From Acidimicrobiales bacterium (GTDB taxonomy: Bacteria > Actinomycetota > Acidimicrobiia > Acidimicrobiales > Poriferisodalaceae), in NCBI GenBank assembly GCA_014239555.1, contig JAAZYR010000005.1, positions 1 through 64,000 on the forward strand: a DNA stretch of 64,000 nt, given 5' to 3'. Of this stretch, positions 1 to 44,651 are shown piece after piece. How positions within the stretch are numbered: position 1 is the stretch's first letter; each line of letters starts with the position of its first letter. The translations under genes were made by a program, and so were the position numbers. The notes beneath the pieces were generated by a model, which saw only the letters and a program-made list of their open reading frames with translations, did no database searches and was not told the DNA's origin.

Positions 1-443
1 GCGATATCGATGCCCTCAATCTCGGCGGCCCGAAGTAAAACGGATCGAAGTTCGGGGTCATATACCGACGTCATATCCGTATGTGTGACTTCGCCTGGTT
101 GGTCAAAAAAGGTGCAATCGCGTCCTTGGGTGAACTCAATGAAATCGTCAACCAAAAGCAGTGACCCTGATCCGCGTTCGGGAACCATTGATCCGACGAC
201 GTTGACGGCAAACACCGAGTCGACTCCCAAGTCGACGAGAGCACGAATATTGGCCCGATAGTTGATGGCATTAGGAGGTATCGAATGATCGCCGCCGTGG
301 CGGGCAACGAAAGCGACAGGGACGTTGTGCCAGAGTCCTGTAGACACCGATGCATTTCCGTAGTCAGTAACGAACGTCTCGTCTCTTCGTTCACGTAACC
401 CTGGAAGTTCGTAATAGCCACTACCTGCGATGATCCCGATCAT
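1..443 (-). CDS. MTA/MTI phosphorylase (PNP/MTAP family), 3' part cut by window edge
   Basis: The minus frame from ATG at 443 stays open to the left edge, giving 147 residues. It begins MIGIIAGSGYYELPGL and carries a phosphate-binding ARHGGDH segment, then IPPNAINYRANI and FIEFTQGRDCTFF, the usual order of the trimeric methylthioadenosine/purine nucleoside phosphorylase family. These enzymes split methylthioadenosine or methylthioinosine with phosphate to the base and methylthioribose-1-phosphate. It follows an MTA-deaminase-like gene on the same strand after 65 bp, so I infer a methylthioinosine route (deaminate, then phosphorolyse). Whether the substrate is MTA, MTI or another purine nucleoside cannot be read from this part. 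No clear Shine-Dalgarno precedes the ATG. Confidence 0.85.
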   Translation of the reverse strand, partial: MIGIIAGSGYYELPGLRERRDETFVTDYGNASVSTGLWHNVPVAFVARHGGDHSIPPNAINYRANIRALVDLGVDSVFAVNVVGSMVPERGSGSLLLVDDFIEFTQGRDCTFFDQPGEVTHTDMTSVYDPELRSVLLRAAEIEGIDI

Positions 444-508
444 GACGCCATCGTGACACGCTACTGGCGACCCATGTGTTGGCTGAGGGGTGGTCTACCG
501 TTTCGTCG

Positions 509-1840
509 TTAGGTTCCGGACTGTTGCGCTAGACGCAAACCGCGAGATTGCACTTCAGTCATAGCTTGTTCTACATCGACTGTGAGGCATTGTCGGTCGG
601 CGACAACTTGTTCGCCTCCCACCCAAACATCGGTGACATGTCGTCCGCTGCCTGACCATGCCAGGTGCGCAATTAAGTCGTCGGTGCAGGTGACAGGAAC
701 AAAGGTCGGATCATCTAAGTTGATGCGAATAAAATCAGCTCTGTGCCCTTTTTCGAGGCTGCCCACGTCGAAATTGCCAATAGCTCGAGCACCTTCAACA
801 GTGGCCATCCGAAGCGCATCTCGCGGACTCATCGCTGAAGCATCCAGTGCTGAAACCCTTGCTAGTAAAGGTGCGAACTTGATTTCTTGCCACAGGTCCA
901 GGTCATCGTTTGAGGCGGGCCCGTCGGTTGCCAATCCGACTTCGATTCCTCGTGCACGCATTGCGTGGACCCGGGCGACACCGGATCCAAGTTTCATGTT
1001 GCTGACGGGGCAATGAGCGACAGAGACTTCGTGTTGCGCGTACATTTCGATGTCGGCGTCACTGAGCCAAACACTGTGCGCTGCCAGAACTCGTCCATCA
1101 AGAATGTCGTGTTCAGCTAGTAGCTGAACAGTCGAGCGGCCCTCGTGTGCTGATTCGAGTTCGCTTCCTTCGTCCTGAGTTTCGCAGACGTGAATGTGTA
1201 GAAGCGCGTCTAGATCGCGAGCTGCTGCAGCTATCTCTGCGCAGAGTTCGAGCGGCAGGTCGTACGCCGAATGAGGCCCAAATCCAACGGTGACCCTATT
1301 TTCCGGGTCGTGGTAGTGCTGATGGAAGTCAGCGATCGTGGTTATGCGCCTTTGGGTCGAACCGAAATCAACAGCATGAAGCGCCGAGATGATGCCGGGT
1401 GTCATAACTAGCCGAATCCCTGCATCAGTAGAGGCTTCGACTACCGACTCTTCGAAGAGGTACATCTCACAGGTGCTTGTCACGCCTGCTCGTAGCATCT
1501 CCGATGCTCCGAGACGCATTCCCCAAAGCACATCCTCAGGGGTCATTTCACCTTCGCGCGGCCACATCACTTGCGTTAACCATTCCAGGAGAGGGAGCCC
1601 GTCACCGGCGCCACGCACCAGCGTCATAGGGGTGTGGGCGTGGCTATTTACAAGGCCCGGCATGATCAAGCCACCAAGCTGATGCACAGGGCCGTCACAC
1701 AGCGGTGCTTCCGATTGAGGTCCGATGAATGAAATCCGACCGTCAGTTACGTCAATTGCAGCGTTCGAGACAACAGAAAAGTCTTGATCGCAAGTGACCG
1801 CGATGTCAGCAAGATAGCGATGGGTAGTCACGTGCAACAT
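509..1840 (-). CDS. mtaD: Amidohydrolase, MTA/SAH deaminase-like (TRZ/ATZ family)
   Basis: This 443-residue protein is a metal-dependent TIM-barrel amidohydrolase. The HxH metal site is in LVNSHAHTPM, further ligands are in LHIHVCET and LAAHSVWL, and the catalytic Asp lies in LATDGPASNDD. That layout and length fit the cytosolic family deaminating 5'-methylthioadenosine, S-adenosylhomocysteine or related N-heterocycles (MtaD, atrazine-type hydrolases). The downstream phosphorylase on the same strand supports methylthioadenosine as substrate. The alternative is a guanine or triazine-type deaminase of the same family. Gene start is about 80 bp from the divergent livH. Confidence 0.8.
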   Translation of the reverse strand: MLHVTTHRYLADIAVTCDQDFSVVSNAAIDVTDGRISFIGPQSEAPLCDGPVHQLGGLIMPGLVNSHAHTPMTLVRGAGDGLPLLEWLTQVMWPREGEMTPEDVLWGMRLGASEMLRAGVTSTCEMYLFEESVVEASTDAGIRLVMTPGIISALHAVDFGSTQRRITTIADFHQHYHDPENRVTVGFGPHSAYDLPLELCAEIAAAARDLDALLHIHVCETQDEGSELESAHEGRSTVQLLAEHDILDGRVLAAHSVWLSDADIEMYAQHEVSVAHCPVSNMKLGSGVARVHAMRARGIEVGLATDGPASNDDLDLWQEIKFAPLLARVSALDASAMSPRDALRMATVEGARAIGNFDVGSLEKGHRADFIRINLDDPTFVPVTCTDDLIAHLAWSGSGRHVTDVWVGGEQVVADRQCLTVDVEQAMTEVQSRGLRLAQQSGT

Positions 1841-1919
1841 CCTGGCACGCGATTTTAGAAGTAGGTATGACCAGTAAGAGGGTGCTTAACGCACGCGGGG
1901 ATGACAGACTTCGAAGTGC

Positions 1920-2858
1920 ATGTCGCTGTTCTTACAACGAACCTTTGACTCCCTTGCTAACGGCTCGGCGTACGCCGCTCTGGCGGTCGCTATTTCGATG
2001 GTATTCCGCTCGACCGGAGTTCTAAATCTCGCGCAGGGTCAGCTAGCGATGTTTTCCACCTATATCGCCCTGGTCTTCGCCACGGGGCCGAGTCCCTATC
2101 TGAAGTTCTCATCCAACACGGACGTGCTGGGGGCGGCGTGGCCGATCTGGGCGGCCATCCTTGGCGCGGTAGTGATCTCGATGGTGATCGGAGCTTTCAC
2201 TGAAAGGGTCATTATTCGTCCTATTAGCGCTGACCCCGTTGCGGCCATTGGAGCGACACTAGGTCTGTATTTACTCCTCGGTGCTTTTGTTCGAAAGCAA
2301 TGGGGCGGGCGAACGATGTTCTTGGGCTCTCCCTTTCCTCAGACCGTCGACGATCGCTGGGATATCGGCGGCGCTCGTCTCTGGCACGACTCCGTCGGGA
2401 TCACGCTCACAATGATCGGAGTATTGGGTCTTCTGGCGGTGCTCCAACGCCGAACCAAAGTTGGTCTCGCTTTTCGAGCGGTGACATCGAATCGCACGGG
2501 ATCGCTCATGGTAGGAATCAGGGTTAGTCGGGTGCTTATGCTCGGCTGGGCCTTGGCAGCTGGGATCGGGGCATTAGCAGGTGGTCTGATAGCCGGAGAG
2601 ATCAATGTGCGGCCCGACATGATGGGACGGCTCCTAATATTCGGTCTTGCGGCGGCCACTTTGGGCGGCCTTAGAAGCCCAGTTCTCGCGTTTGTCGGAG
2701 GTTACTTATTCGCATTTCTTGAGACCATGCTGGGCGGTTACGTGAGCTTCATCGATAGTCAAGTCACGTTGGTATGGGCCTTATTGGTACTCATCGTCGT
2801 CTTATTTGTGCGCCCCTCGGGACTATTACCGCGAAGCGAAGCGTGGCAGCAACGATGA
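1920..2858 (+). CDS. livH: Branched-chain amino acid ABC transporter permease LivH-type
   Basis: A 312-residue integral membrane protein with about eight hydrophobic segments. The N-terminal stretch with NGSAYAALAVAISMVFRSTG followed by NLAQGQLAMF is typical of LivH permeases, which form half of the membrane channel of Liv-type (HAAT) importers. It overlaps the livM-like gene by ATGA, so translation is coupled. No LivG/LivF ATPases or binding protein adjoin it; two binding-protein genes lie about 38 kb away in this window. The substrate could be a branched-chain amino acid, another amino acid, urea or an amide. Confidence 0.9.
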   Translation: MSLFLQRTFDSLANGSAYAALAVAISMVFRSTGVLNLAQGQLAMFSTYIALVFATGPSPYLKFSSNTDVLGAAWPIWAAILGAVVISMVIGAFTERVIIRPISADPVAAIGATLGLYLLLGAFVRKQWGGRTMFLGSPFPQTVDDRWDIGGARLWHDSVGITLTMIGVLGLLAVLQRRTKVGLAFRAVTSNRTGSLMVGIRVSRVLMLGWALAAGIGALAGGLIAGEINVRPDMMGRLLIFGLAAATLGGLRSPVLAFVGGYLFAFLETMLGGYVSFIDSQVTLVWALLVLIVVLFVRPSGLLPRSEAWQQR

Positions 2859-3991
2859 CCGCTAGAAATCCGGCTACTTCAACCCCTCTGCGAATTGTGT
2901 GGGTGGTTATCTCACTGGCATTCGTCGTTTTGTCTGTGCGAGTCGGGTTTGGTGCAACTCCGAAGATAGTCACCGACTTTTCAAACTCAATAGCCTTATC
3001 GCTCGCGTTTGGCGGGTTGGTGCTGCTGACCCACTACCTCGGCCTTTTATCCCTAGGCCAGGGAGCTCTTGTCGGGGTCGGGGCTTACGCCGCGCTGCAT
3101 GCGGTGAACGATTTTGGTGCACCCGTCGTTTGGATGCCTCTGGCCGGCCTGTTGGCAGGAACGCTCGTGGGGGCCATCGTGGCCATTCCTTCTCTGCGTT
3201 TACCCAAGGCGTATCTTGCTCTCCTTACTCTTTCTCTGGCAGTTGCCTATCCCATCATCCTGAAGCAAGTTGACGGCAACTTGCCAGTCACCCTCGATGG
3301 TGAATTTGTGGCGCCGTCGTGGACAGGGATCGCCGAAGAGGACGAACACATATGGGAACTTTTTCTGGTCACGATTTACGCATCGGCAGCGCTTTTCTTG
3401 GTTCAAGGCCTACTGAGAGGACCAATAGGACGGGCCTTTATAGCTAGCCGTGACGAACCCGAAGCTGCGAGGGCCTTTGGGGTCCCGGTCTATCGGCTGC
3501 GGCTCTACGGGGTGGCATTAAGCGGAGGCATGGCCGGATTAGCTGGTGGCCTTCTGATGATTCCAACTAACTTCAACGACTTCACCCATTATCCAGAAGA
3601 GTTGTCGATCAAGATGTTCGCACTGGCGATAGCTTTCGGCGGATCCCGTTTAATTTCGTCAGTTCCCGCGGCGTTGATCCTTATCTTTCTTCCAGTTTGG
3701 TTAATTGATCGGAATTGGGTCGTCGAATACGGATGGGTGGGGCTCTTTAAATCCGAAGGATTCATCTACGCTGCGCTTCTTCTCGCCACTGCATACCTCA
3801 CTAGAGGCAAGGGCTTCATGCACTTGTTTGAACGTCGCAAACCTCGCAACATAGAAACAGCCGTGACCACAAACAGAGGCGCTTCACTAGTAGCTGATCA
3901 ACTCGTGGCTCTTGAGAACCAGTTAAATCGAATAGAGGGGTTTGTGGGTGAGCGACCTGACATCAGTTCGCGCCAAGAACCGAATGATTGA
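2855..3991 (+). CDS. livM: Branched-chain amino acid ABC transporter permease LivM-type
   Basis: I start this permease at the ATG overlapping the livH stop (ATGA), giving 378 residues; a longer frame begins at 2774 inside livH but coupling favours 2855. The LGLLSLGQGALVGVGAYAAL segment and the cytoplasmic-loop sequence SRDEPEAARAFGVPVYRLRL are characteristic of LivM, the second membrane subunit of Liv importers. After the last membrane helix there is a soluble tail of about 60 residues ending with a short helical stretch (ALENQLNRIEGFV). Transcription runs into a convergent SDR gene. Confidence 0.9.
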   Translation: MTARNPATSTPLRIVWVVISLAFVVLSVRVGFGATPKIVTDFSNSIALSLAFGGLVLLTHYLGLLSLGQGALVGVGAYAALHAVNDFGAPVVWMPLAGLLAGTLVGAIVAIPSLRLPKAYLALLTLSLAVAYPIILKQVDGNLPVTLDGEFVAPSWTGIAEEDEHIWELFLVTIYASAALFLVQGLLRGPIGRAFIASRDEPEAARAFGVPVYRLRLYGVALSGGMAGLAGGLLMIPTNFNDFTHYPEELSIKMFALAIAFGGSRLISSVPAALILIFLPVWLIDRNWVVEYGWVGLFKSEGFIYAALLLATAYLTRGKGFMHLFERRKPRNIETAVTTNRGASLVADQLVALENQLNRIEGFVGERPDISSRQEPND

Positions 3992-4034
3992 CCTAACTCT
4001 TCTGCACGCTTCACCGCCTAAACGTGCGGCTCAA

Positions 4035-4071
4035 GTTCCGCGCCGCGATCTATTGCGCCAAACAGCGGAAC
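4035..4071. repeat. Hairpin element, copy A (shared loop with 6227-6262)
   Basis: Arms GTTCCGC (4035-4041) and GCGGAAC (4065-4071) enclose a 23-nt loop. A 21-bp stretch at 4044-4064, almost the whole loop, is identical to 6236-6256 upstream of the rhodopsin gene, while the outer arms there are different yet still complementary. The element sits between convergent livM and an SDR gene, 46 bases beyond the SDR stop. There is no T-run, so it is not a classical terminator. It may be a structured RNA, a REP-like palindrome or a protein site. Confidence 0.6.
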
Positions 4072-4117
4072 CTAAAGCGAGTTGGGGTTTATGGAGATAT
4101 CCCTCGAATGGCTGTAA

Positions 4118-4897
4118 CTAAGCGTTTTTGATCAGCAGGCCACCATCGACTGGCAAGATTGCGCCAGTCATGTATTGACTGGCTGGCAAGCAAAAGTTGA
4201 GTGTCCCATGGGCCACTTCTTCAGGTTGTGCGAAACGGCCAAGCGCGGTGCGTCGCTTCGCGAAAATAACCTTAACTTCATCTGGAATATCAGCGACCAT
4301 CGCAGTGTCGATAGGGCCAGGGCAGATGCAGTTGACGGTGATTGCCTCTCTACCTAGTTCTACAGCCAAAGATTTCGTAAGGCCGACCACACCGTGCTTT
4401 GCAGCGGTATACGGTGACCCGAACCTGGTGGCACCCCACCCTTCGGTCGACGCAATATTGACGATACGCGCAGCGTCACTTCGACGTAGATAGGGAAGGG
4501 CTGCCCGAATTGTTCGAGTGTGAGCGGTGAGGAGAACTTCGAGCGAAATCGCCCACTCGTCTTCATAATTTTCGGCGTCGATGGGAGCCAAACAAGAAAT
4601 GCCTGCGTTGTTGATGAGATAGTCGATGCCCCCGAAGCGGTCAGCGACTTCTGTGGTGACTTGCTGTACGCGGTCGGCGTTGGCGACATCCATGGTCCAT
4701 CCTGCAGCGGATCCACCAGCTTCGGTAATTTCAGCAACCACCGCGTCCACTTCGGTTTGGCCAAGGTCCGTTACTGCGACGTGTGCGCCTTCATCAGCAA
4801 AAAGGTGCGCCGTTGAACGGCCTTGCCCCCCGCCGGCGCCAGTCACCAACACCACTCGACCTTTCACCGACCTGCTTAGTTCAGTTAAACGCCCCAC
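4118..4897 (-). CDS. Short-chain dehydrogenase/reductase (FabG-like)
   Basis: A classical SDR of about 259 residues. The cofactor motif is TGAGGGQG, followed by NNAG, the catalytic Ser in NIASTEG, YTAAK with catalytic Tyr and Lys, and a C-terminal TGAILPVDGG. The Asp after beta-strand 2 (VTDLG) suggests NAD(H) preference. I choose GTG at 4897 because AGGAGG lies just upstream; an ATG at 4915 in the same frame is possible but the ribosome site then falls inside the gene. Members reduce or oxidise hydroxyl/keto groups, often on acyl-CoA or terpenoid substrates; the substrate here is unknown. Confidence 0.88.
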   Translation of the reverse strand: MGRLTELSRSVKGRVVLVTGAGGGQGRSTAHLFADEGAHVAVTDLGQTEVDAVVAEITEAGGSAAGWTMDVANADRVQQVTTEVADRFGGIDYLINNAGISCLAPIDAENYEDEWAISLEVLLTAHTRTIRAALPYLRRSDAARIVNIASTEGWGATRFGSPYTAAKHGVVGLTKSLAVELGREAITVNCICPGPIDTAMVADIPDEVKVIFAKRRTALGRFAQPEEVAHGTLNFCLPASQYMTGAILPVDGGLLIKNA

Positions 4898-4984
4898 ATT
4901 GGCCTCCTCGGACATGTACGGAACTGAAACTAGCTGTACCTGGCTGGGCGCTGGCGACCGAAGGAATTCCCGTCCAGGTTCGAG

Positions 4985-5331
4985 CTAGAGAGTTTCGAGG
5001 TGACGTTCAAGCACGTCTGCGTACTTCGCTAGAACCGCTTCGCGTTGTTTGGGTAGATGCGTGCTTGGGAACAGGTCGTCGCAGGGAACATAATCATCGA
5101 GTACTCGACGAGCTACTTGAACTTTGTGCACTTCTGTGGGCCCATCGGCCAGCCCCATATGAAATGACCCCATCACTTCTCTAGTAAAGGGCATTTCCCA
5201 TGACACACCCAACGAACCATGAATTTGCAGTGCTCGGGTCGCAATATTTCGGTAGACACCAGGCATTGCGGCCTTTAGCCCAGAGATGTCTTTGCGAACT
5301 TTCTTATAATCCTGGTACCTGTCAAGGCTTC
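4985..5331 (-). pseudogene. Acyl-CoA dehydrogenase, C-terminal remnant
   Basis: The minus frame encodes only the last ~115 residues of an acyl-CoA dehydrogenase: a segment reading KKVRKDISGLKAAMPGVYRN, then RALQIHGSLGVSWEMPFTRE and LADGPTEVHKVQVARRVL, which match the C-terminal helical domain and its FAD/CoA contacts. The FAD-binding N-terminal and middle domains (about 300 residues) are missing. Homology stops where the 53-bp direct repeat begins at 5332. An internal ATG at 5266 could give a 93-residue peptide, but it would lack any active site. I read this as a gene truncated by the rearrangement that placed the rhodopsin gene here. Confidence 0.8.
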
Positions 5332-5384
5332 GGCCTTGAGGTTTAACTCAAAAGCCAATCAGCTGGGGCTAAGTCACTTTCCGC
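5332..5384. repeat. 53-bp direct repeat, copy 1 (3' side of rhodopsin)
   Basis: This stretch is identical over 53 bp to 6298-6350, which is the last 13 codons, stop and 3' flank of the SDR gene at 6309-7136. The similarity continues more weakly into 5385-5404 (14 of 20 bases), and there the differences include synonymous-type changes in the SDR frame plus an in-frame TAA. So this is the end of an SDR homologue, not just a short repeat. It directly abuts the truncated acyl-CoA dehydrogenase. It also contains the small inverted repeat TTGAG/CTCAA. Confidence 0.9.
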
Positions 5385-5435
5385 TTAACGACGACTTTTC
5401 AACCAGAGATACCCAAGCCAGAACGACCTATTTGT

Positions 5436-6149
5436 CTAGCTTTCGGAGGTTGACCGAGCTTTGGCTATGCCAACGATCATTAACCCGTATAGACCTTTTG
5501 CTGTGATGTCGGCAAACGTGTACCCGACTTGGCGCAAGGTTTCTAGGGTGCCTGAGTTGGCGTCAAAGACGGGGAACAAATATGCGATTGGGTAAACCAA
5601 CCAGGTAGCTAGCAGAACATATGTGGCGTTTTTAATGGCTACTGCTACCACCGCGGTTTCTCGTGTTGCTGCAGCTTTGAGTTGGCCGTACAGCGTCCAC
5701 AGGATGAATGCGAACGGGATCATCGCTAGGAACCAGAAAAGCCACTTCGTTCCAGAAGTGCTTGCGACCTCACCCGGATAACCCAATCCGATCATTAAGA
5801 CAGTTGCGGGTAATAACGATTTCATTAACCGTTTGCGAATATCGGCACTGACTCCCAGAACAATAAGAAGTTCGATGATGAGCAGAGGAACGGTGATCAA
5901 CCAATCGGCGTATCGGTAGCCCTCATTCATCTTCATATCGCCGAAATCTGACCAAATTCTGAAGTAGTGGTAACCAGCTATTCCGACTACCACCGCAGAA
6001 ACAGAAATCGCCGACCTGTACTGCTCTTTTACTGCTTTCAGTTGGGTCAGGAAATAGACGAAAGCGCCGAACATTACTGCTGTCCCGAAAGACAGAACGT
6101 TGTACACGAGGGTGTATTGGTCGGGACTCAGCAACTCAACTGGGTTCAT
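5436..6149 (-). CDS. Proton-pumping rhodopsin (proteorhodopsin type, green-tuned)
   Basis: A 237-residue seven-helix retinal protein of the cytoplasmic membrane, predicted to pump protons outward in light. Helix C (YRYADWLITVPLLIIE) has Asp82, Thr86 and Glu93, the DTE triad of proteorhodopsins: primary acceptor, Thr and proton donor. Leu90 sits at the spectral-tuning position and predicts green absorption. His61 aligns with the Asp-partner His. Helix G carries Asp214 and the Schiff-base Lys218 (ADITAKGLYG). Where antenna-binding xanthorhodopsins have a small Gly in helix E I align Trp139, arguing against a carotenoid antenna. Known planktonic Acidimicrobiia carry such rhodopsins. No retinal-synthesis gene is in the window. 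The gene lies between perfect 53-bp repeats. Confidence 0.96.
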   Translation of the reverse strand: MNPVELLSPDQYTLVYNVLSFGTAVMFGAFVYFLTQLKAVKEQYRSAISVSAVVVGIAGYHYFRIWSDFGDMKMNEGYRYADWLITVPLLIIELLIVLGVSADIRKRLMKSLLPATVLMIGLGYPGEVASTSGTKWLFWFLAMIPFAFILWTLYGQLKAAATRETAVVAVAIKNATYVLLATWLVYPIAYLFPVFDANSGTLETLRQVGYTFADITAKGLYGLMIVGIAKARSTSES

Positions 6150-6155
6150 AAGTGA

Positions 6156-6161
6156 CTCCTT
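6156..6161 (-). promoter_or_regulatory. Strong Shine-Dalgarno of the rhodopsin gene
   Basis: On the minus strand AAGGAG ends six bases before the rhodopsin ATG at 6149. It is one of the best ribosome sites in the window, where many genes lack one, and suggests efficient translation. Confidence 0.8.
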
Positions 6162-6226
6162 AACGGACTATTGCTGTGAACGCTAAAGGCAGGTTTCCTC
6201 AAAGCCCCATAGCGCTCGCACTCGCA

Positions 6227-6262
6227 GCCCCGCGACGCGATCTATTGCGCCAAACATGGGGC
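6227..6262. repeat. Hairpin element, copy B, in rhodopsin 5' region
   Basis: Arms GCCCC (6227-6231) and GGGGC (6258-6262) enclose a 26-nt loop that includes the 21-bp sequence shared with 4044-4064. The arm sequences differ from copy A but still pair, which looks like compensatory change. The upper arm is 46 bases from the stop of the SDR at 6309, the same spacing as copy A has to its SDR, and about 80-110 bases upstream of the rhodopsin start, so it could act in the rhodopsin leader. Confidence 0.6.
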
Positions 6263-6297
6263 GAAGTCAGGTACCTCTAAATCGAAATTTCCTGTCG

Positions 6298-6350
6298 GGC
6301 CTTGAGGTTTAACTCAAAAGCCAATCAGCTGGGGCTAAGTCACTTTCCGC
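6298..6350. repeat. 53-bp direct repeat, copy 2 (5' side of rhodopsin, inside SDR 3' end)
   Basis: Identical to 5332-5384. Here the repeat forms the natural end of the SDR gene: the minus strand encodes AESDLAPADWLLS and TAA. Recombination between the copies would remove a 966-bp unit containing only hairpin copy B and the rhodopsin gene, and leave the SDR gene whole. Confidence 0.92.
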
Positions 6351-7136
6351 GTAAAGGCGGCTTTGGAACCTTTGCATGCCAGTAATCCAACGGTCCACGT
6401 CGCTGGCTTTTCGTTCTCTGTATGTCTGAACTTCAGGGTGCGGTAATACCAGAAACCTTTCTTCAGACATGCACTCGATGACAGTGTCCGCTAATTGTGC
6501 AGCGGTGAGGACTCCATCACCAGCCGCGCTGCCCGGTGTGCCGGTCCCTTGATCAAGCCGATCGGGGCTATTTCGCAGGATGTTGGTTTCTACGGCCTGC
6601 GGACAGAGCATTGACACTCGAATACCTCGTTCTCCATAGGTAATGGAAAGAAACTCACCTAACGAAACCGCCGCCGCTTTAGTAACGGCGTATTGCATGG
6701 ACCCGAGTTGTGTGAGGAGGCCGGCAGCAGATGCAGTGTTCAGCAAATAACCCCCACCGTTGGCAACCATGACCGGCACCGCAGCCCTGGCGGCATAGAT
6801 GTGGGACATCACATGCACTTCCCACATCCGTTGAATTTCGGCGTTGTCGGTCTCGAGGCCCCCCTGGGTGACATACCCAGCATTTGAAGCGAAAATATCG
6901 AGCGTTCCGTGGTCGTCGACAGTTTCAGCAACGACCGCTGCCACGGCCGCTTCGTCGGTGACGTCTAATGCAACTGCCCTGCCGTTTACGTTCTGAGCTA
7001 CGCGTTCGGCATTTACCCCATCGCGATCTACCACAACTACGCCCCGTGCACCTTCGGCATGAAATCTTTCGGCGAGCGCTTCACCGATTCCGCTACCGCC
7101 ACCGGTGACGATGGCAACTTTGTCTCTAATTTCCAT
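6309..7136 (-). CDS. Short-chain dehydrogenase/reductase
   Basis: A 275-residue SDR from ATG at 7136; a longer frame from 7178 adds 14 residues that do not fit the family. Motifs are TGGGSGIG, an NAG variant ASNAG, catalytic Ser in LNTASAAG, and YAVTKAA with Tyr and Lys. The Asp-Arg after strand 2 (VVDRD) suggests NAD(H). The C-terminal part with LPHPEVQTYRERKASDVDRW resembles SDRs annotated as retinol- or hydroxysteroid-dehydrogenase-like in actinobacteria. Its last 13 codons are duplicated beyond the downstream rhodopsin gene. A role in retinoid metabolism would be attractive from context but is only a guess. Confidence 0.88.
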   Translation of the reverse strand: MEIRDKVAIVTGGGSGIGEALAERFHAEGARGVVVVDRDGVNAERVAQNVNGRAVALDVTDEAAVAAVVAETVDDHGTLDIFASNAGYVTQGGLETDNAEIQRMWEVHVMSHIYAARAAVPVMVANGGGYLLNTASAAGLLTQLGSMQYAVTKAAAVSLGEFLSITYGERGIRVSMLCPQAVETNILRNSPDRLDQGTGTPGSAAGDGVLTAAQLADTVIECMSEERFLVLPHPEVQTYRERKASDVDRWITGMQRFQSRLYAESDLAPADWLLS

Positions 7137-7275
7137 AGGAGCAGCGTAACGAGCAGCACTGAAGGCTGCTTGACGCACGCACCATCGTTTATAAAGCTAC
7201 GGCTCTCAACCGAGGCACGCTTCCCCCTGCCACGCTGCTGGCAACTTCCGCTCAATCCCCGAAGGACACGATCAA

Positions 7276-8496
7276 ATGGCTACTCCGCTCGACAACGTGA
7301 CCGTCATCGAAATTGACAACTGGATGGCTTCGCCAAGCGCTGGAGCCATACTCGCTGACCTCGGTGCTGATGTGATCAAGATTGAGCCTTTGAACGGCGA
7401 CCCGATGCGAGACATGGGTCGACCGGCGAAAGTTTCAGAAGACAAAAAGGGTTTCGATTTCCAGTTCGACGTGTCAAACCGGGGAAAGAGGTCGATTGCT
7501 ATAGACCTCGAGTCCGAAGCCGGGTTGGAAGTCGCTTTATCCCTCATCGCTGGTGCCGATGTGTTCATGTGCAACCTTTTGAGGCACCGCCAGGAAAAAT
7601 TCGGATTGGACCCTGAAAGCGTCAAAGAAGTCAACGCAAACATTGTTCACGCGACCTTGACTGGCTACGGAACTCATGGCCCCGAAGCACATCGACCTGG
7701 GTACGACGTCACTGCTTTTTTTGGGCGGTCTGGTCTCTATGACGCTATGCGCGAGGGTGAGAGTGGCACAGTCCCCATGGCGCGCCCCGCTCAAGGCGAC
7801 CACACGACCGGACTCGCATTTGTTGCCGCAATTTTGGCGGCGCTTCGCCTCGCAGAAAGAACCGGTGAGGCACAGGTAGTTGAGACGTCTCTCTATGAGA
7901 CCGCCATTTGGACACAAGCGACTGATTACGCAATTACGGCAGTGGACCTGGCGCCACTCCGACCCCGTGCTAGAGAAAATATGATCATCCCAACCGCAAA
8001 TCGGTACCCATGCGGTGATGGGAAGTGGGTCGTTCTCAACATGCCCGAGGAGAGCGCTTGGTCGAAGTTGTGCCGCGTAATTGAACGAGAAGATTTGTTA
8101 GCCGATGAGAGACTTCAAGACATTCGGGGGCGTTTCCAACACATGCCTGAACTAGTCGCCGCTATCGACGAGGCCCTTTCTTATCGAAGCCGGGACGAAT
8201 GGGGCGAAATTTTCGATGAAAACAGCATCATTTGGGGGCCGGTACTTGGCCTTCACGAAGTCGCTTCTGATCCTCAAGCTGATGCACTGGGAGTTTTTCC
8301 GACGGTGCACAGTGATGACATCGGTTCGTACCGAACCGTCGCTGTTCCCATGCGCTTCACCGATGTTGACGTCGGACCGAAAGGTCCGGCACCAATGTTG
8401 GGACAACATACGCGGGAAATTCTCGCAGACGCAGGTCACGAACCGGAAGAAATTCAATCTCTCCTTAAGCGCGGTGCAATCGGAGAGTTGTCTTAG
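7276..8496 (+). CDS. Class III CoA-transferase (CaiB/BaiF family)
   Basis: A 406-residue protein of the formyl-CoA transferase fold. The N-terminal NVTVIEIDNWMASPSAGAIL, DLGADVIKIEPLNGDPMR and NRGKRSIAIDL blocks are signature family III sequences, and the catalytic aspartate is expected in AQGDHTTGLAF. Such enzymes move CoA between carboxylic acids, usually to activate a substrate for beta-oxidation or alpha-methylacyl-CoA chemistry. It is divergent from the SDR at 6309-7136 across 139 bp, which must hold both promoters; I could not identify convincing -35/-10 pairs. The substrate is unknown. Confidence 0.92.
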   Translation: MATPLDNVTVIEIDNWMASPSAGAILADLGADVIKIEPLNGDPMRDMGRPAKVSEDKKGFDFQFDVSNRGKRSIAIDLESEAGLEVALSLIAGADVFMCNLLRHRQEKFGLDPESVKEVNANIVHATLTGYGTHGPEAHRPGYDVTAFFGRSGLYDAMREGESGTVPMARPAQGDHTTGLAFVAAILAALRLAERTGEAQVVETSLYETAIWTQATDYAITAVDLAPLRPRARENMIIPTANRYPCGDGKWVVLNMPEESAWSKLCRVIEREDLLADERLQDIRGRFQHMPELVAAIDEALSYRSRDEWGEIFDENSIIWGPVLGLHEVASDPQADALGVFPTVHSDDIGSYRTVAVPMRFTDVDVGPKGPAPMLGQHTREILADAGHEPEEIQSLLKRGAIGELS

Positions 8497-8564
8497 ATTT
8501 CTTGTTCCGTTTGCCTGCCGAATTCAGCGGTTGTCTCATTGCAGGAATTTTCGAGTTGATCGCA

Positions 8565-9380
8565 TCAGAGTCGGATTTCGTCCGGGGCGATCATTTGACT
8601 TTGCAGCACCCACCCAATGACTCCAATTTCATCATGGAGAGTTGTGCGACAACACGCCAAATTTGTTGACGAACGTTCAACTGCCGAGTCAAGCAAGACC
8701 CATTCGGATTGCGGCAGACGCAAAAGTTGGAGGGTCACGTCAGCGTTGATGAACGACTTTTCGCCCTCAACATATTCCCAACCGACTGCTGCTCCGAGGT
8801 CGGACAAAGTCGCGACCTGCTGAAATTTTGAGGTCGGTTCATCGGCTATTAGCGCGTGATCAAGGCGTGCCCATATAAGTCCTGGACCGGACTCCTCTGT
8901 CGAGCCATTAATGACACGAAGTTCGACCGCGTCGGCGTTGAATCCAGGTCTCGGGTATTCCATATCGGGGTGTGCCCCGGGGTCCGCTCGTTCGGAGGGG
9001 ATCGCTGGGATTGGTATTTGTTCTCCCGTCAGATCTTTCGGTCGCGAAAGCCACTGCGAGGTAGCGCGTGCTGTCAATCTGCCGTCATGTGTTATCGATG
9101 CTTCTACTACGGCCGTCCGTTTTCCGTTCTTCACAACGTTGGCTGCTACTCCCAACGCACCAACCGGGACCCCTGAGAGAATCTCTACGGTGTAGCGCGA
9201 ACAGATGAGATCTTCTCGGTCAAGTTCACGCTCTATGAAGCGACTCATTAAGCCACAAATAGGTCCACCATGCATCACGCCATGACTCCACGGGCCGCGG
9301 GTCAGTTCGGTCGCTTCGACGCCTCCTTCACAGGTCAAAAAGAGCGCTGGGGGATATTCTTCTGGGGCGGGGGTGGGCAT
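8565..9380 (-). CDS. Acyl-CoA thioesterase-like protein (double hot-dog)
   Basis: A 271-residue protein whose N-terminal half contains RGPWSHGVMHGGPICGLMSR and a VEILSGVPVG strand, as in the TesB-like/4HBT_3 thioesterase family. The second half (SGPGLIWARLDHALIADEP, GWEYVEGEKSFINADVTLQL) resembles the paired C-terminal hot-dog. Two fused hot-dogs normally make one pseudo-dimeric hydrolase for acyl-CoA. It is convergent with the CoA-transferase before it and divergent from the LLM gene after it (22 bp between starts), so it probably works in the same acyl-CoA network. Confidence 0.8.
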   Translation of the reverse strand: MPTPAPEEYPPALFLTCEGGVEATELTRGPWSHGVMHGGPICGLMSRFIERELDREDLICSRYTVEILSGVPVGALGVAANVVKNGKRTAVVEASITHDGRLTARATSQWLSRPKDLTGEQIPIPAIPSERADPGAHPDMEYPRPGFNADAVELRVINGSTEESGPGLIWARLDHALIADEPTSKFQQVATLSDLGAAVGWEYVEGEKSFINADVTLQLLRLPQSEWVLLDSAVERSSTNLACCRTTLHDEIGVIGWVLQSQMIAPDEIRL

Positions 9381-9402
9381 CGAACCACGTTAGGGTGCGG
9401 AA

Positions 9403-10341
9403 ATGAATCCGTTCCGATTTGGCGTCCAGTTTTCAACATCAGCGTCGGGTTCTACCTACAGAGAAACTGTCCGGAAAATCGAGGATCTGGGCTACAGCAC
9501 CGTGTTTTGTCCCGATCATTACGATGATCAGTGGGCGCCGACGGTGGCTTTGACGGTGGCGGCAGAAGCCACGAAAAGTCTACGAGTGGCTGCGCTGGTG
9601 TATGACGTGGATTATCGGCACCCAGTGACTCTCGCCAAAGAGATTGCGACTCTCGATGTCATATCCGAAGGTCGGGTGGAGTTCGGCATTGGTGCGGGAT
9701 GGATGAGACGTGACTACGAAGCTGCCGGAATCCCGTTCGACAGACCTGGGGTTCGCATAGACCGAATGATTGAGGCCATCGAAGTCATCCAAGGTTTATG
9801 GACAGCTGAAACTTTCGACTTTCAAGGAAGTCACTACTCCATCAATGGCTTGGCCGGCTCGCCATCGCCTCACCAAGCGGGTGGGCCACCAATAATCGTC
9901 GGAGGCGGCGGGAAACGAGTCTTAACCGAAGCAGCCCGGCGAGCTGACATTGTTGGACTTAATGCTTCACTCCACGCTGGATCTGTAGGCCCAGAGACAG
10001 CATTATCTGCTCTTGGAGAGAGATTCTTGGAGCGACGTAACTGGGTGGAGGAAGCGGCAGGAGAACGATTTTCCCAACTCGAACTTCAGATGAATACCTT
10101 TATGACCGCTGTAACTGCTACGACTGCAGAAGCTGACGAAATGATCGAGGGGATGGCACCGATGTTCGGTCTCTCACCAGATCAGGCACGAACTATACCG
10201 ATGGTTCTTGCCGGGACCGTTAATGACGTCTGCGAGCAGCTTCACCATCACCGTGAACTCTACGGAACTAGCTATTGGGTAATTCACGATGGAGAAATCG
10301 ACGCGATGGCACCAGTTGTGGAGCGAATGCGGGGAAAATGA
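9403..10341 (+). CDS. LLM-class F420-dependent oxidoreductase
   Basis: A 312-residue TIM-barrel protein of the luciferase-like monooxygenase superfamily, in the F420-dependent subgroup (FRFGVQFSTSASG start; RVEFGIGAGWMRRDYEAAGI, a typical LLM active-site/coenzyme strand; GGPPIIVGGGGKR). These enzymes transfer hydride to or from coenzyme F420 on secondary alcohols, sugars or unsaturated compounds. No flavin reductase partner is nearby, which favours F420 over FMN. The substrate cannot be inferred. The gene runs toward addB, 58 bp before the start chosen for that gene. Confidence 0.88.
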   Translation: MNPFRFGVQFSTSASGSTYRETVRKIEDLGYSTVFCPDHYDDQWAPTVALTVAAEATKSLRVAALVYDVDYRHPVTLAKEIATLDVISEGRVEFGIGAGWMRRDYEAAGIPFDRPGVRIDRMIEAIEVIQGLWTAETFDFQGSHYSINGLAGSPSPHQAGGPPIIVGGGGKRVLTEAARRADIVGLNASLHAGSVGPETALSALGERFLERRNWVEEAAGERFSQLELQMNTFMTAVTATTAEADEMIEGMAPMFGLSPDQARTIPMVLAGTVNDVCEQLHHHRELYGTSYWVIHDGEIDAMAPVVERMRGK

Positions 10342-10399
10342 TCCCTGGGGCACAGGTCATCCTCATCGCTTCGTCGCGCGAAAGTCCCACCCCAGATCT

Positions 10400-13300
10400 A
10401 TGGTCAGAGCCGTGATCGACTTACGGTCCGTCGAATTTGGTCAACCAGCGCTGCATAAGCTCGGAGAAGTGGTGCGCGCCGCGAAGCGCCAAGATGTCTT
10501 TGCGCCGGTCACGATTGTTGTCTCATCTTCTTTCGCTGCAGTCACTTTGCGCCGCAAATTAGTGAGGGATGAGTTTCGCCCAACGTCAGATGGTCGCAAC
10601 GGCTTAGTCGGAGTTTCTTTCCAAACACCATTTCAGCTAGCCGAAGCGTTAGCGGCCGACTCTTTAGCCGTCACGAATCGTCGACCACTCACTAAACCAA
10701 TAATCGCCGCGGCGATCAGACAAATTTTGCGCCGAGATTCTGGAATTTTTCACAACTCGGCGAGTCACCCAACTACTGAGCGCGCCTTAGTTCGCGCGCA
10801 CCGCGAGTTACGCGATCTGACTCCAGAGCAGCTCGACGTTTTACGTTCGACCGGAGCAAGAGCGGCCGATGTCGTGCGCGTCCATGAAGCGATCACGAAG
10901 CGGTTAGCTGCCGACTGGTTCGACGAATTCGATCTATTGAAGGTCGCCACCGAGTCGATAAAAGACGCCTCCGAGTTCGGACTCGTCGTCGTTTTTCTTC
11001 CCGAACAGTTATCGATGCCAACCTCAGATTTCTTACGCGAGTTGGGAAACACAACACAGGTGGTGGCTCTCGTCGGTATTACCGGACACGACGACGCCGA
11101 TTTCGACGCTCATCGGACCGCACAAATGCTCGGAGGTGAACTGGATCCAACGGGCATTCAGATACCTGTCGGGGACGCGATTATTTCGCTGAGCGATCCC
11201 GATGAAGAGGTCCGATCAGCAGTTCGAACAGTGATTATGTCGTTGGATGATGGGGTCAGCGTTGATCGCATCGCCGTTCTCTATCCGCACCGAAATCCCT
11301 ATTTACGCCTTGTTGAAGAACAATTCGAAGAAGCAGGCATCCGCCACAATGGCGATGCAGCGAGACGTCTGTCCGACTCCGTTCTTGGACGTTTCATCAG
11401 CAGCATGCTGGAACTTGCCGATGAGGGGCGAGCCCGGGAGAACGTTCTGCAACTGCTCGCATCAGGGCCGATTCGACAGTTTTCGGATGGACAGAGGCAT
11501 GTTCCTGCGGTTGCGTGGTCGAGACGAGCTCGCGCTGCTGGTGTTATCGGCGGGTTGGGAGATTGGACTCTTCGCCTCACAACTCACCGTGACGATCTGG
11601 TGGAAGTTTCTAAACGACGCAGATCACAAGGGAAGGACATAACTGAAGTCGGTGATTTCGACAAGGCTGTCGCCGAAACCGAAGAACTGCTCGAATTCGT
11701 TACGGAACTTGATGAGTTGACCACCGCCAGCGAGCTTCCCGATAGTTGGCCCGGTTTGTGTGATTGGTTGAGATCATTGGTCGCGCGTTATCTTGGTCCG
11801 CGTTCCCTTTTGCCGGTAGATGAGCAGCAGGCAGCAGAAACCATCGAGCGGATCCTTCAGCGACTATCGGTGTTAGCTCGGATCGAATCGAACGTGACAC
11901 TGACTGTTTTCAGGCGAACCTTTGAGGCGCAGACCGCCGACACTGTCGAACGATACGGAACTTTGGGTGACGGAGTTTTCGTGGGAAGTGTCGAACGCGC
12001 TTCGGGTGCCGATTTCGACTTGGTCATCGTTTTGGGATTGGCCGAAGGTATATCGCCTACACGGTGGCGCGAGGATGGCCTACTCCCTGATTATGAACGA
12101 GAATCCCTCGAAGGAACGATGACTCTGACGCGCGACAGAGGGATGTTGGACTACAGGCGATACCTCGCCGTGCTCGCAGCTTCCACATCGAGCATTCTCA
12201 CCTATCCCAGGGGAGATTTACGTCGAGGCGAAGGCAACTATCCTTCGAGATGGCTCGACGACACCGTCGCTTCACATGGAGCACTTTCTCTCGAAGAGGC
12301 CATGCAAGACGACGAGCAATCCTGGGCGACCTTGATTCCCTCCTTCGTGTCGGGGGTTCGAACAACAAAGATCCCTGTGTCCCTCAACGAGTTCGATTTA
12401 CAGTATTTGCTGGATTGTTTGGACCAGAACCAGAATTTGGCCGCGACCTCTTTGGGAGCATCGTCGCCTTTTGAGCTAGGGCGACAACTCATCGAAAGCC
12501 GAGACAACCAAATATTTAGCCGCTACGACGGAAATCTTGCAGGTGTGGTTACTCGCGAAGGGATTCGGACTGATGTGGTATCTCCTACTCGGCTTCAGGA
12601 TTGGGCCGATTGTCCGCACAAATACTTCATGCGTCACGTGTTGGCAATACGTGAGCCTGAAAGACCGGAGGAACGAATTCGCGTCTCGGCTCTCGACCGC
12701 GGGTCATTAATACATGAGTCAGCTGACCGTTTTTTTCAAGAATTTCTTGAATCGCGATCAACTGATGGTGAGCCTGTCACCTACACAGACGCGGACGTCG
12801 CAGCGATCGTGAGACATGGCCAGGAGGTAGCTAGCGAACTCGAGGCGCGGGGCGCGGTCGGCAGCCCCATCTTTTGGACCCGAGACCGAGAAGCTCTCCT
12901 CAACGATTTACGAGGACTACTTATCAACGAACAAAAGCGGGAGATTCGAGGACGTGTCGTAGCTTCCGAGTTCGGCTTTGGCGTCGATGGGGCAAGTGTT
13001 GGAGCTATCCGCCGAACCCTGCCTTCGGGGAGAGTAGTCACATTTAGGGGAAGCATAGATCGGGTCGAAATGACCGAAAATGGCGATCTAGTAGTGGTCG
13101 ACTACAAAACAGGATCTGTTGAACCCTACAAAGGCCTAAGTAGCAGAGAGCCGACTCTCGCCGGAACGAAACTACAACTCCCCATTTACGCTCTCGGTGC
13201 CCGTGCAGGGTTCGGGAATGACAACACTCTTGTTCATTCCACGTACTGGTTCACCAGTAACAATCCCGGTCGATGGCAAACAAAAGGCTACGAGGTCACC

Positions 13301-31032: not shown

Positions 31033-31770
31033 ATGACCGGATCTACACCCACCCTCCTGCTGCTCCATGGCCTCGGCGCCACGGCACAAGTGTGGGATCC
31101 ACTTATTGCGACGGCGAAATGGGCAGGGCGAGTTGTTGCGCCTGATTTGCGCGGCCACGGATCCGCCCGCTGGGCTGAAAACTACTCATTCGGTGGGATG
31201 GCCTCAGACGTAGCGGAGTTGGTAGAAGTCGATGAAACCTATGTGGTACTAGGGCATTCCATGGGCGGTGTCGTGGGAGCTGCTTTAGCGACCGGCTTAT
31301 TCGGTCATCCTCCGCTAGCAGTTGGGGTTATTGGGGCAAAGATTGTTTGGTCTGATGAGGAGTTGGCGAAGCTCCCTGAGGTTGCCGCGAAACCGCCAAG
31401 AGTTTTCGATAACCGAGAAGGGGCTGCCGATTGGTTTCTCAAACTTTCGGGGCTGTTTGGGGTCGTGCCGTCTGATAGCCCGCTCACAGAACGCGGAGTG
31501 GTCCACATTTCCGATGGCTGGAGGGCAAGCCAGGATCCGCGAAGCGTTCTTGTGGGAACAGGCGCCCCGCCTTTCTCTGAAATGTTAAAAGACGTGTTGG
31601 CGCCGACTTTTATGTCACTTGGAGAACATGACCCGTTGGTGTCCCCGTCTGATCACAAGAACATGCCTACCGATTCGCCTCATGTATTCAAAGGATTGGG
31701 ACACAACGCCATGGTTGAAGATCCAGCGACCGTGTGGTCATGGTTTTGTAAAGCAGCTTCACTCGTCTGA
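31033..31770 (+). CDS. Alpha/beta-fold hydrolase
   Basis: A 245-residue alpha/beta hydrolase. The oxyanion region is LLLHGLGAT, the nucleophile Ser is in VVLGHSMGGVVGAA, the acid in SLGEHDPLVSP, and the His in FKGLGHNAMVEDP. This is the layout of esterases, lactonases and C-C hydrolases such as MhpC. The gene follows the 2OG oxygenase after 61 bp on the same strand. Its stop codon lies at the edge of a hexanucleotide repeat shared with the convergent membrane-protein gene. Confidence 0.87.
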   Translation: MTGSTPTLLLLHGLGATAQVWDPLIATAKWAGRVVAPDLRGHGSARWAENYSFGGMASDVAELVEVDETYVVLGHSMGGVVGAALATGLFGHPPLAVGVIGAKIVWSDEELAKLPEVAAKPPRVFDNREGAADWFLKLSGLFGVVPSDSPLTERGVVHISDGWRASQDPRSVLVGTGAPPFSEMLKDVLAPTFMSLGEHDPLVSPSDHKNMPTDSPHVFKGLGHNAMVEDPATVWSWFCKAASLV

Positions 31771-32169
31771 AGTCGAAGTCGAAGTCGAAGTCGAAGTCGA
31801 AGTCGAAGTCGAAGTCGATGTCGATGTCGCCAACGCGACCATCGCGAATGTGACGATCATCAACGAAGTGTGCACAGCTTTGAATCCGAAAGACCAGTCG
31901 CTGTCAATCAAAATACTGCTTCCACGTATTAGCCAAAATCCGATAGACCAGGTCGCTAACCATTTGAGAGGGTTCCACCCAGGGCGACCCGAAACTACCC
32001 ACGACAGTGTGACTGTGGCCAACAGTAAAAAAATCCCGGCAACCGCTAGTCGCCAAGCAGCTGCAACTCCATCGAGATCGTCATTTGTTAGGACATTACG
32101 GATCCGAGAAATCCATAGCGCAAAGGTCCAACCCAGAAGCGGAAAGACCCGCCACCTATTCGTTCTCAA
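31759..32169 (-). CDS. Small membrane protein with a Thr-Ser repeat tail
   Basis: A 136-residue protein with three or four hydrophobic segments (WRVFPLLGWTFALWI, AWRLAVAGIFLLLATVTLSW, LATWSIGFWLIRG, TSLMIVTFAMVALA). I do not recognise the family. The C-terminus is about ten Ser-Thr pairs encoded by a perfect hexanucleotide repeat. It overlaps the SDR gene upstream by 4 bp, so it is likely co-transcribed with it, and converges with the hydrolase by 12 bp. The topology suggests a small integral protein with its tail free in solution; function unknown. Confidence 0.7.
   Translation of the reverse strand: MRTNRWRVFPLLGWTFALWISRIRNVLTNDDLDGVAAAWRLAVAGIFLLLATVTLSWVVSGRPGWNPLKWLATWSIGFWLIRGSSILIDSDWSFGFKAVHTSLMIVTFAMVALATSTSTSTSTSTSTSTSTSTSDE
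31769..31828. repeat. Hexanucleotide tandem repeat, (GAAGTC)8 (GATGTC)2
   Basis: Eight perfect GAAGTC units at 31769-31816 are followed by two GATGTC units. On the minus strand they encode the Ser-Thr tail of the membrane protein, and they begin at the hydrolase stop codon. Slippage would change the tail by two residues per unit without breaking the frame. Confidence 0.95.
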
Positions 32170-42998: not shown

Positions 42999-44651
42999 CT
43001 ATCGGCAACCACCGTTGGCTTTATCCCAACGACAGTTCGGGGTTCCACCGTTGGCGTCAACAACGTCACCAACCATGACCCATGTCTGGTTCTCTGCATC
43101 GAACTTGCTGTACTCGGAACCTTCAACGAAGTAGGCGTCCGAATTGCCCTTCAGTTCGGTAACAAGACCGTCCAGGAGACCTGGGTGATAGATCTTGAAG
43201 TTACGCAAAGCCAACATCAAGTTGGTACGGCTCATGCCACCAGGCAGGGCGTCAGCGATGCGGAATGCTTCAGTAAACGCATATCCACGGAAGACACCTT
43301 CGCCTGTTAGCGAAATGCCTGGGTCTTCACCGGCGTCTGAGATGAGGTCGCGTGCAAAGGCAATAAACGGCTCTTTCATCTTCACGCTGTCAGTGGTGTC
43401 TTTGGCGCCACCACCAACAATCCAGTAGTCGTTCGCTGCCATTCCGGCCGGCGCCATGTAAGCAGCAATTCCCTTACATACCGAAGGAGTGAATGCCGCT
43501 GACAGGCGTTCGTAAAGACCAGAGGCCTCTACTTCTTGGATGGCCAGCAAGCATGGGTTGCCTGCAGTCATGGAAATGAACACGTCAGGATCGAACGCAG
43601 CGATGGTGGTCACCTCATTGGTGAGCGTCGGAGCGGCCGGGTCGTGACGAACTGGAAGGTACTCAGCTACCACGTCGGGGTTGTTTTCGACGTACGCCTC
43701 AAAGCCCATTTCATAGGCAAGACCGAAGTCGTTGTCCATCACCAAACCGGCAACCTTCACAGGAAGCTCATCGGCGAGGTTCACCTTGATCCATGTTCCC
43801 CACAGCACAGCCTCAGTCGAGTATGACATTTGGTAGCTGGTGGTCCATGGGTGGAGCTCAGGGTCACCCCATGCTGGGTGACCTGAGAGGTAGAACGGGT
43901 GAGGAATGCATTCTTCGTTGATCTTGTCGTAGACAGCAAGACCATTCGGCGAGCCGAGGCCTTGGATCAAGTGAATGTTTGCGGACTCGATGAGTTCGTC
44001 AACGTACTCAATTGTTTGAGCGGCGACATAACCGTCGTCCTTGATGATGAATTCGATGTCACGGCCACTCAACACGTCGAGTGAGTCGATGTAATCGAAC
44101 CAGATTTGCATACCGAGGCTGAGGTTGCCGTATGCGGCAAGGTTGCCTGATTGCACGGTGGTCTGACCGAAACGTAGCTGATCATCGGTAAGGCCTGCGT
44201 GATCGTCCCAGTCTGATGGGCAGACGTTGAGGTCAACGTCCATGCCGCTAGGTCCAATGAGGTGGTTGTCGCTATTGACGCCCCACTCACCGGCTTCCAT
44301 CTTCGCGGTGATCGCTGCGATGATCGCGTCACGGTTGCAGTCAGCTTCAGCGAAGATGCCTTCAACGTTTGAGCGGTCAGAAGGACAATCGCTAGCAACT
44401 TCTTCTTCAGCTTCGCCGTCATCTTCACCGGACACGGCTTTTTCAATCGCGTCTTGGCTCAGAGTACCGCCAGTGTCTTCTTCCTCAGCTTCCTCAGCTT
44501 CTTCCGCTTCGGCTTCGTCAGCAGATTCGCTAGAACTACTAGCGCTACTAGACGAATCGTCGTCGTCGTCACTGCTTCCGCACGCCGCCGCAACAAGTGC
44601 GAACGCGAACAGAACAGCGAGCAGACGCAACAAATTGCGTCGAATCTCCAT
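42999..44651 (-). CDS. Liv-type ABC transporter substrate-binding lipoprotein, copy 2
   Basis: A 550-residue paralogue of the protein at 41021. The lipoprotein signal (MEIRRNLLRLLAVLF, lipobox VAAAC, lipid Cys24) and acidic Ser/Glu-rich linker are conserved, then the Liv-binding fold starts at DQLRFGQTTVQSGNLAAYGN. A central segment (AEYLPVRHDPAAPTLTNEV and onward) is identical between the two proteins over about 55 residues, while the N-terminal and C-terminal thirds differ, so ligands may differ. AGGGGA precedes the ATG. The upstream gap to the divergent LLM gene carries a 13-bp inverted repeat. Confidence 0.88.
   Translation of the reverse strand: MEIRRNLLRLLAVLFAFALVAAACGSSDDDDDSSSSASSSSESADEAEAEEAEEAEEEDTGGTLSQDAIEKAVSGEDDGEAEEEVASDCPSDRSNVEGIFAEADCNRDAIIAAITAKMEAGEWGVNSDNHLIGPSGMDVDLNVCPSDWDDHAGLTDDQLRFGQTTVQSGNLAAYGNLSLGMQIWFDYIDSLDVLSGRDIEFIIKDDGYVAAQTIEYVDELIESANIHLIQGLGSPNGLAVYDKINEECIPHPFYLSGHPAWGDPELHPWTTSYQMSYSTEAVLWGTWIKVNLADELPVKVAGLVMDNDFGLAYEMGFEAYVENNPDVVAEYLPVRHDPAAPTLTNEVTTIAAFDPDVFISMTAGNPCLLAIQEVEASGLYERLSAAFTPSVCKGIAAYMAPAGMAANDYWIVGGGAKDTTDSVKMKEPFIAFARDLISDAGEDPGISLTGEGVFRGYAFTEAFRIADALPGGMSRTNLMLALRNFKIYHPGLLDGLVTELKGNSDAYFVEGSEYSKFDAENQTWVMVGDVVDANGGTPNCRWDKANGGCR

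Follow-up and report, generated by a model that had tools for sequence, protein, structure and literature searches.

A lone rhodopsin gene in a probable compound insertion beside a short-chain dehydrogenase gene of an Acidimicrobiales genome

The stretch of 64,000 nucleotides analysed here as a whole, hereafter the window, comes from genome G000 (2.72 Mb, 68 contigs), and the site described below lies on a contig of 222 kb. The site is flanked by a permease-like gene and a resident short-chain dehydrogenase (SDR) gene, and the following features were assigned to it (coordinates, strand where there is one, and basis).

2774-3991, ABC-permease-like gene, assigned by reading the ORF
4038..4064, left copy of a 27-nt repeat, derived from a decayed gene that once followed SDR, and putative left edge of the foreign DNA; single copy in G001
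4065..4121, plus strand, tail of a convergent gene (last 18 codons, AEPKASWGLWRYPSNGCN, and the stop), cut at the left junction; homology to G019 and G014
4118..4915, minus strand, SDR2, a complete short-chain dehydrogenase on the fragment; Pfam, 91-93% amino-acid identity to G014, G016, and G019
4985..5322, minus strand, acyl-CoA dehydrogenase reduced to its C-terminal quarter, where the fragment breaks off on the right; Pfam, 81% nucleotide identity to the full gene of G005 (contig C13)
5317..5404, minus strand, duplicate SDR 3' end plus 3' flank, hairpin included; holds the left 53-bp repeat (5332-5384) and the diverged 5385-5404
5405..5422, junction sequence; longest exact match of 5385-5424 is 13 nt in 1.57 Mb of fetched loci
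5423..6191, minus strand, rhodopsin block, with the gene at 5436-6149 and ~40 nt of 5' leader; Pfam PF01036, 91% nucleotide identity to G018, G015, and G013
6192..6229, junction sequence; no exact match longer than 12 nt among 1.57 Mb of fetched loci
6230..6256, right copy of the 27-nt repeat; direct-repeat comparison
6257..6297, spacer, dead-gene remnant, G001-like except that 7 nt are deleted, and with them the hairpin following the SDR stop; comparison with G001
6298..6350, minus strand, right copy of the 53-bp repeat, formed by the genuine SDR 3' end together with the next 11 nt; exact-repeat search
6309..7139, minus strand, intact resident SDR gene, whose orthologues are conserved across the genus; Pfam and comparison with congeners

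An earlier reading of this DNA, made from the sequence only, had described identical 53-bp repeats around a 966-bp cassette, and recomputation of the exact match bore the repeats out, with a start-to-start spacing of 966. The stretches 5332-5384 and 6298-6350 agree over 53 nt without mismatch, in direct orientation, and are the longest exact direct repeat in the 64-kb window, whereas the longest exact repeat reached only 14-16 nt in 20 codon-block shuffles; the pair is far above chance expectation. The right copy is indeed the true SDR end, since it contains the stop (6309-6311) of the full gene on the minus strand. The sequence-only reading was also correct that the acyl-CoA dehydrogenase is truncated, with approximately the N-terminal three quarters gone and 110 codons aligning to the end of a 434-aa homologue, and that 5385-5404 is SDR-like with an in-frame stop: 14 of its 20 positions are like the SDR coding sequence, the stop is TAA, and the chance of an extension this good adjoining the repeat is P ~1e-4. 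Elsewhere in the window, diverged tandem repeats with a spacing of ~1.98 kb were observed (41409-41708 / 43390-43689, 82%; 42146-42217 / 44124-44195, 76%). The same area holds exact stretches 44 and 24 nt in length, and the repeats perhaps represent tandem paralogous genes. A short tandem array of GAAGTC units is located at 31769-31834.

The boundaries first proposed for the insertion had to be redrawn in two places. An additional direct repeat, 4038-4064 / 6230-6256 (27 nt, one mismatch), had been overlooked. In G001, the nearest relative searched, the equivalent of 3990-4064 runs directly into the equivalent of 6232-7270 with one 27-nt copy, which argues that the 27-nt repeat, and not the 53-bp repeat, marks the true edges of the foreign DNA. 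The foreign DNA bounded by these copies would be ~2.17 kb long, and the 53-bp repeat is one part of a larger scar. Furthermore, the left SDR-derived copy does not start at 5332 as had been assumed: the SDR 3' flank of G001 matches down to 5320, a common TGTC carries the likeness to ~5317, and the copy as a whole (~5317-5404) is 90.6% identical to the SDR 3' end and flank of G001. Dehydrogenase homology stops at 5323, which places the probable dehydrogenase/SDR-end junction at about 5317-5323.

The continuous site of G001 is a rhodopsin-free allele. All five congeners searched lack rhodopsin, and all five keep the permease-SDR order without SDR2 or the dehydrogenase in between. In the three genomes of g6 and g8 that were translated (G018 and G019 of g6, G031 of g8), an intact gene follows SDR, and the 27-nt repeat corresponds to its MFDAIDR region. 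These comparisons point to the remnant of a dead gene as the insertion target, with the resident SDR left intact. A decaying gene is also seen between the SDR and permease-like genes of G005 (locus L013, 1575-2140) and G004 (L012), and it is intact in other genera of the family. Just right of the insert, G000 stays G001-like (96%). A recombined tract on this side was considered and rejected; the change from ~6600 on is an exchange between G001 and G005. Compared with each other, G001 (L213) and G005 (L214) are 87-95% alike left of ~6600 and 97-99% alike from ~7400 on, suggesting a breakpoint between these two species inside or beside the SDR gene.

The idea that the rhodopsin is a newcomer gained weight from its absence in the five congeners and from the likeness of the block (5423/5425/5432-6191) to rhodopsins of another genus, G013, G015, and G018, which reaches 97% at the amino-acid level in addition to the nucleotide identity given above. 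The scar is real and informative, and the acquisition probably recent. Selection on the gene, estimated against L025 (dN 0.017, dS 0.35, dN/dS about 0.05), appears to be purifying, consistent with a function that has been kept. By sequence profile the protein is xanthorhodopsin-type, and its best solved relatives are 3ddl and 6nwd. It shares with xanthorhodopsin-type proton pumps the family, as judged by sequence, as well as the retinal lysine and the acceptor and donor carboxylates; the Asp and Glu in RYADWLITVPLLIIE and the Lys in TAKGLYG occupy what we take to be the places expected for a proton pump. Xanthorhodopsin has Gly near the antenna opening, whereas the window rhodopsin has Trp there in the alignment. 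With Trp at this position, a carotenoid antenna is unlikely in the window rhodopsin.

Genes of the carotenoid-oxygenase family (PF03055) were present in 35 of 39 genomes of the family, including 7/7 with rhodopsin and 28/32 without. They are a possible source of retinal, and hint at a way for a rhodopsin gained by itself to have been of use from the start. PF15461 (Blh) was detected in 0/39 family genomes but also in 0/14 controls, and its absence is uninformative. The proteorhodopsins of Vibrio AND4 and BAA-1116 are likewise a lateral gain of rhodopsin in a marine bacterium (PMC2860489). There, retinal genes are included and transposase genes flank the region (PMC2860489), whereas the present site has a lone rhodopsin and no transposase.

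The region 4065-5323 matches the dehydrogenase-SDR2 region of G014, G016, and G019 of another genus at 74-75% nucleotide identity, and these three genomes carry the two genes as a pair. This fragment of 1.26 kb comprises the convergent-gene tail, the whole of SDR2, and the last quarter of the acyl-CoA dehydrogenase. DNA homology with G019 begins exactly at 4065, and the convergent-gene tail borders SDR2 in G019 (AEPAATWGLWRYPSAGC...) and G014 too, so the fragment was cut within a gene at both ends. At the dehydrogenase junction a microhomology of 4-6 nt is shared (TGTC to CTGTCG), and the fragment stands in for ~36 bp of host spacer. SDR2 was not found in the five congeners at E<=1e-60, and none of the five has a dehydrogenase at this site; at E<=1e-120 the only dehydrogenase within the genus is that of G005, which is full-length and on another contig. 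The sequence-only reading had held that the insertion destroyed a resident acyl-CoA dehydrogenase. This part has to be given up: with the gene missing from the site in every congener and a separate cut fragment shared with SDR2, the dehydrogenase appears to have arrived as debris and not to have been a victim.

A host-derived stretch of 141 bp (6230-6370), consisting of the 27-nt repeat, the spacer, and the SDR end, is present on both sides of rhodopsin. Its length and that of the segment 5405-6229 (825 bp) sum to 966, the repeat spacing. On the left side the stretch is broken by the dehydrogenase fragment, which takes the place of its spacer. The alignments favour a reading in which one 141-bp piece of host DNA was duplicated and now flanks an 825-bp rhodopsin segment. 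Divergence between the copies is uneven, with 0/53 followed by 6/20 differences on one side and the 7-nt deletion on the opposite side, and the 27-nt copies differ at one position. Downstream, the left copy has a G001-like 3' flank and the right copy has the 7-nt deletion. At the opposite end, resemblance to G001 continues beyond 6350 in the right copy but not beyond 5384 in the left copy. This arrangement fits what a single crossover inside the 53 bp would be predicted to leave.

On balance, we consider it fairly probable that the locus is a young compound insertion, with no recognisable mobile element, into the dead-gene remnant between the permease-like and SDR genes of a marine actinobacterium. 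In one step, a random dehydrogenase-SDR2 fragment of 1.26 kb would have replaced the ~36 bp of spacer by illegitimate joining, using the 4-6 nt microhomology at its dehydrogenase end. In another, 825 bp of rhodopsin DNA may have been joined to 141 bp of the intergenic region and SDR 3' end in a congeneric allele without the first fragment, and the short DNA may have closed into a circle of ~966 bp that entered by one crossover within the 53 bp common to both alleles. Such a crossover would leave SDR intact, with rhodopsin enclosed between two copies each of the SDR 3' end and the 27-nt piece, and the copies would differ only outside the 53 bp, save for the one mismatch in the 27-nt piece. The dehydrogenase fragment could have entered the left copy, or the recipient beforehand, and either of the two events may have come first. 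Arrival by recombination at the SDR 3' end or by integration of a circle had been proposed earlier; the involvement of the SDR end stands, and a circle is the best-fitting form, itself a presumed intermediate. As in single-crossover integrants, a foreign segment lies between direct duplications of resident sequence, the resident gene is intact, the same stretch is found on both sides, and segment plus duplicate equal the spacing.

Neither the donor allele (rhodopsin beside the 27-nt piece, without the dehydrogenase fragment) nor an intermediate allele (the fragment without rhodopsin) was found among the genus genomes searched. The in-frame stop in 5385-5404 is odd for a functional donor SDR and needs fragment-end damage or a chance join. 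Uptake through ComEC received no support because ComEC is absent from G000, its genus (0/6), and g6 (0/8), although present in 17/39 genomes and 10/14 controls. A Ku end-joining step was likewise unsupported, since Ku is absent from G000; it occurs in 3/39 genomes and 1/14 controls. Another history, which we regard as unlikely, is that the rhodopsin segment was inserted with a long (141-bp) target duplication, through staggered breakage and fill-in or through replication template switching, after which the dehydrogenase fragment entered the left copy and gene conversion held the 53 bp identical. One lineage would then suffice, without a second allele, for the same anatomy, and the near-identity of the 27-nt and 53-bp copies shows that they are young. 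Nevertheless, the uneven distribution of differences around the 53 bp would not easily result from plain drift, and the genome has no Ku.

The compound insertion has partial counterparts among experimental systems. Of 60 clones from a conjugation experiment in E. coli, 56 had a duplication of the homologous locus, 109-950 bp long in the 14 that were sequenced (PMC3240628). The duplications were attributed there to a single crossover of a circle short of part of its homology, most likely cut and re-closed (PMC3240628). Such integration of a re-closed fragment leaves foreign DNA between direct duplications (PMC3240628), as at this site, where the duplication is 141 bp. The present case differs from that class in being natural and between species, with shorter homology and a second, unrelated fragment in one copy. 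Homology-facilitated illegitimate recombination (HFIR), which combines one homologous end with one illegitimate join, is also comparable; the join mostly has a short microhomology, of 3-10 bp there (PMC3240628) and of 4-6 nt at the dehydrogenase junction here. However, classical HFIR deletes resident DNA of similar size (PMC3240628), while the rhodopsin part of the insertion duplicates it instead; host DNA, some 36 bp of it, was replaced by the dehydrogenase fragment alone. Among the literature matches listed, none concerned a rhodopsin between host-derived direct repeats, which is weak evidence of absence.

The chief doubt about the structure is that the locus is known from an assembly. An assembler might have joined two strains, one with the dehydrogenase fragment and one with rhodopsin, through the shared 53 bp; the assembly is in 68 contigs, exact repeats of 53 and 21 nt are within the range of short k-mer mis-joins, and the alleles look mixed. 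Even so, the SDR-like end at 5385-5404 belongs to the rhodopsin side, so that one of the strains would itself need to have rhodopsin flanked by two SDR 3' ends. The site is also embedded in the 222-kb contig, where gene order to its left and right agrees with that of congeners over several kb. We judge such a chimera less likely still than a target duplication.

Site-specific integration usually occurs at the 3' end of a gene, which is kept intact and has its end duplicated. An intact gene with a duplicated 3' end resembles this usual anatomy, and a cassette or integrative element with the SDR 3' end as attachment site and rhodopsin as cargo was weighed on this ground. We consider it very improbable. 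No recombinase was recognised among the ORFs of the site (window 1-12000 read by eye; Pfam of four site ORFs), the insert ends in cut genes, and a search of the genome itself with 5300-6400 gave only the site and the other 27-nt copy. In viral contigs, neither exact matches to the SDR-end motif (0) nor close relatives of the rhodopsin were found; four stretches match a peptide pattern, none encoding a relative. Carriage of the rhodopsin by viruses was dismissed on the same grounds.

Flanking repeats were also surveyed at other rhodopsin loci. The best 80 of 98 rhodopsin loci in genome contigs together with the window made 81. Flanks were long enough in 71 of them, and removal of L098 and L100, two contig-edge artefacts, left 69 including the window. 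The window scored 55 nt and the next best of the 68 others 14 nt. Four of these 68 scored 13-14; in mispaired controls, which still contained the artefact loci L098 and L100, 95% scored 12 or less and the 99% level was 35. The median was 10 in both observed loci and controls. Neither among these 68 assessable loci, none of which stands out, nor in the window's own genome was the same attachment site seen in use elsewhere, which speaks against an integrative element. The result also removes support from the earlier suggestion that a repeat mechanism accounts for the patchy presence of rhodopsin. Rhodopsin was found in 7/39 genomes and 4/10 genera of the family, with different neighbours in the window, g6, L028, and L029.

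Clean loss of rhodopsin by recombination between the 53-bp copies is possible, as had been envisaged. Loss by this path would retain the SDR2/dehydrogenase fragment. No allele of that form turned up, and the observed empty sites are without the fragment as well, as would be expected of the pre-insertion state or of recombination between the 27-nt copies.

Rhodopsin lies on the same strand as SDR, about 160 bp behind the SDR stop. A hairpin, TCAAGGC-CGAA-GCCTTGA, is located behind rhodopsin (5317-5345) and is deleted between SDR and rhodopsin (6280-6311). The one after rhodopsin, in the left SDR-end copy, folds at -12.3 kcal/mol (z -2.6) with no T-run after it, and the SDR-rhodopsin interval of the window reaches only -1.5, with no hairpin left. 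Expression of rhodopsin by read-through from SDR is a plausible, if speculative, possibility because the 7-nt deletion took away the hairpin behind SDR. This idea is weakened by the corresponding hairpin of G001, which at -5.6 folds no better than shuffles (z -0.44). Consensus scans did not rise above shuffles, with one promoter-like sequence against 1.5 expected and three terminator-like sequences against 2.2 expected.

Lateral transfer of rhodopsin is mostly inferred from trees. At this locus one can follow base by base where the gene landed, how the site looks when empty, which genes are its closest relatives, and what scars the joining left, and lateral acquisition becomes a testable sequence of events. 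A second scar was found by chance at L163 (G013 contig C11, 5097-7231), where a segment of ~2.05 kb, some 300 bp upstream of the G013 rhodopsin, is enclosed by 42-nt direct repeats (95%). The segment aligns to contig C5 of the window genome in two pieces, with identities of 98% and 92%; it is matched in G001 and G005 as well and is absent from the sister genomes G014, G015, and G018. The 42-nt repeat corresponds to the 3' part of a 120-aa ORF of contig C5, whose neighbourhood is common to both genera. From these matches it resembles the scar in the window, though the DNA would have moved in the opposite direction, and it hints at a common route. We doubt, but put forward tentatively, that these marine actinobacteria have a recurring route, free of transposases, by which individual genes, rhodopsin among them, spread through short circles and one crossover at gene 3' ends, with the G013 scar as a second product. 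Such a route would leave the host gene intact, the newcomer under host read-through, and a duplication scar that is reversible.
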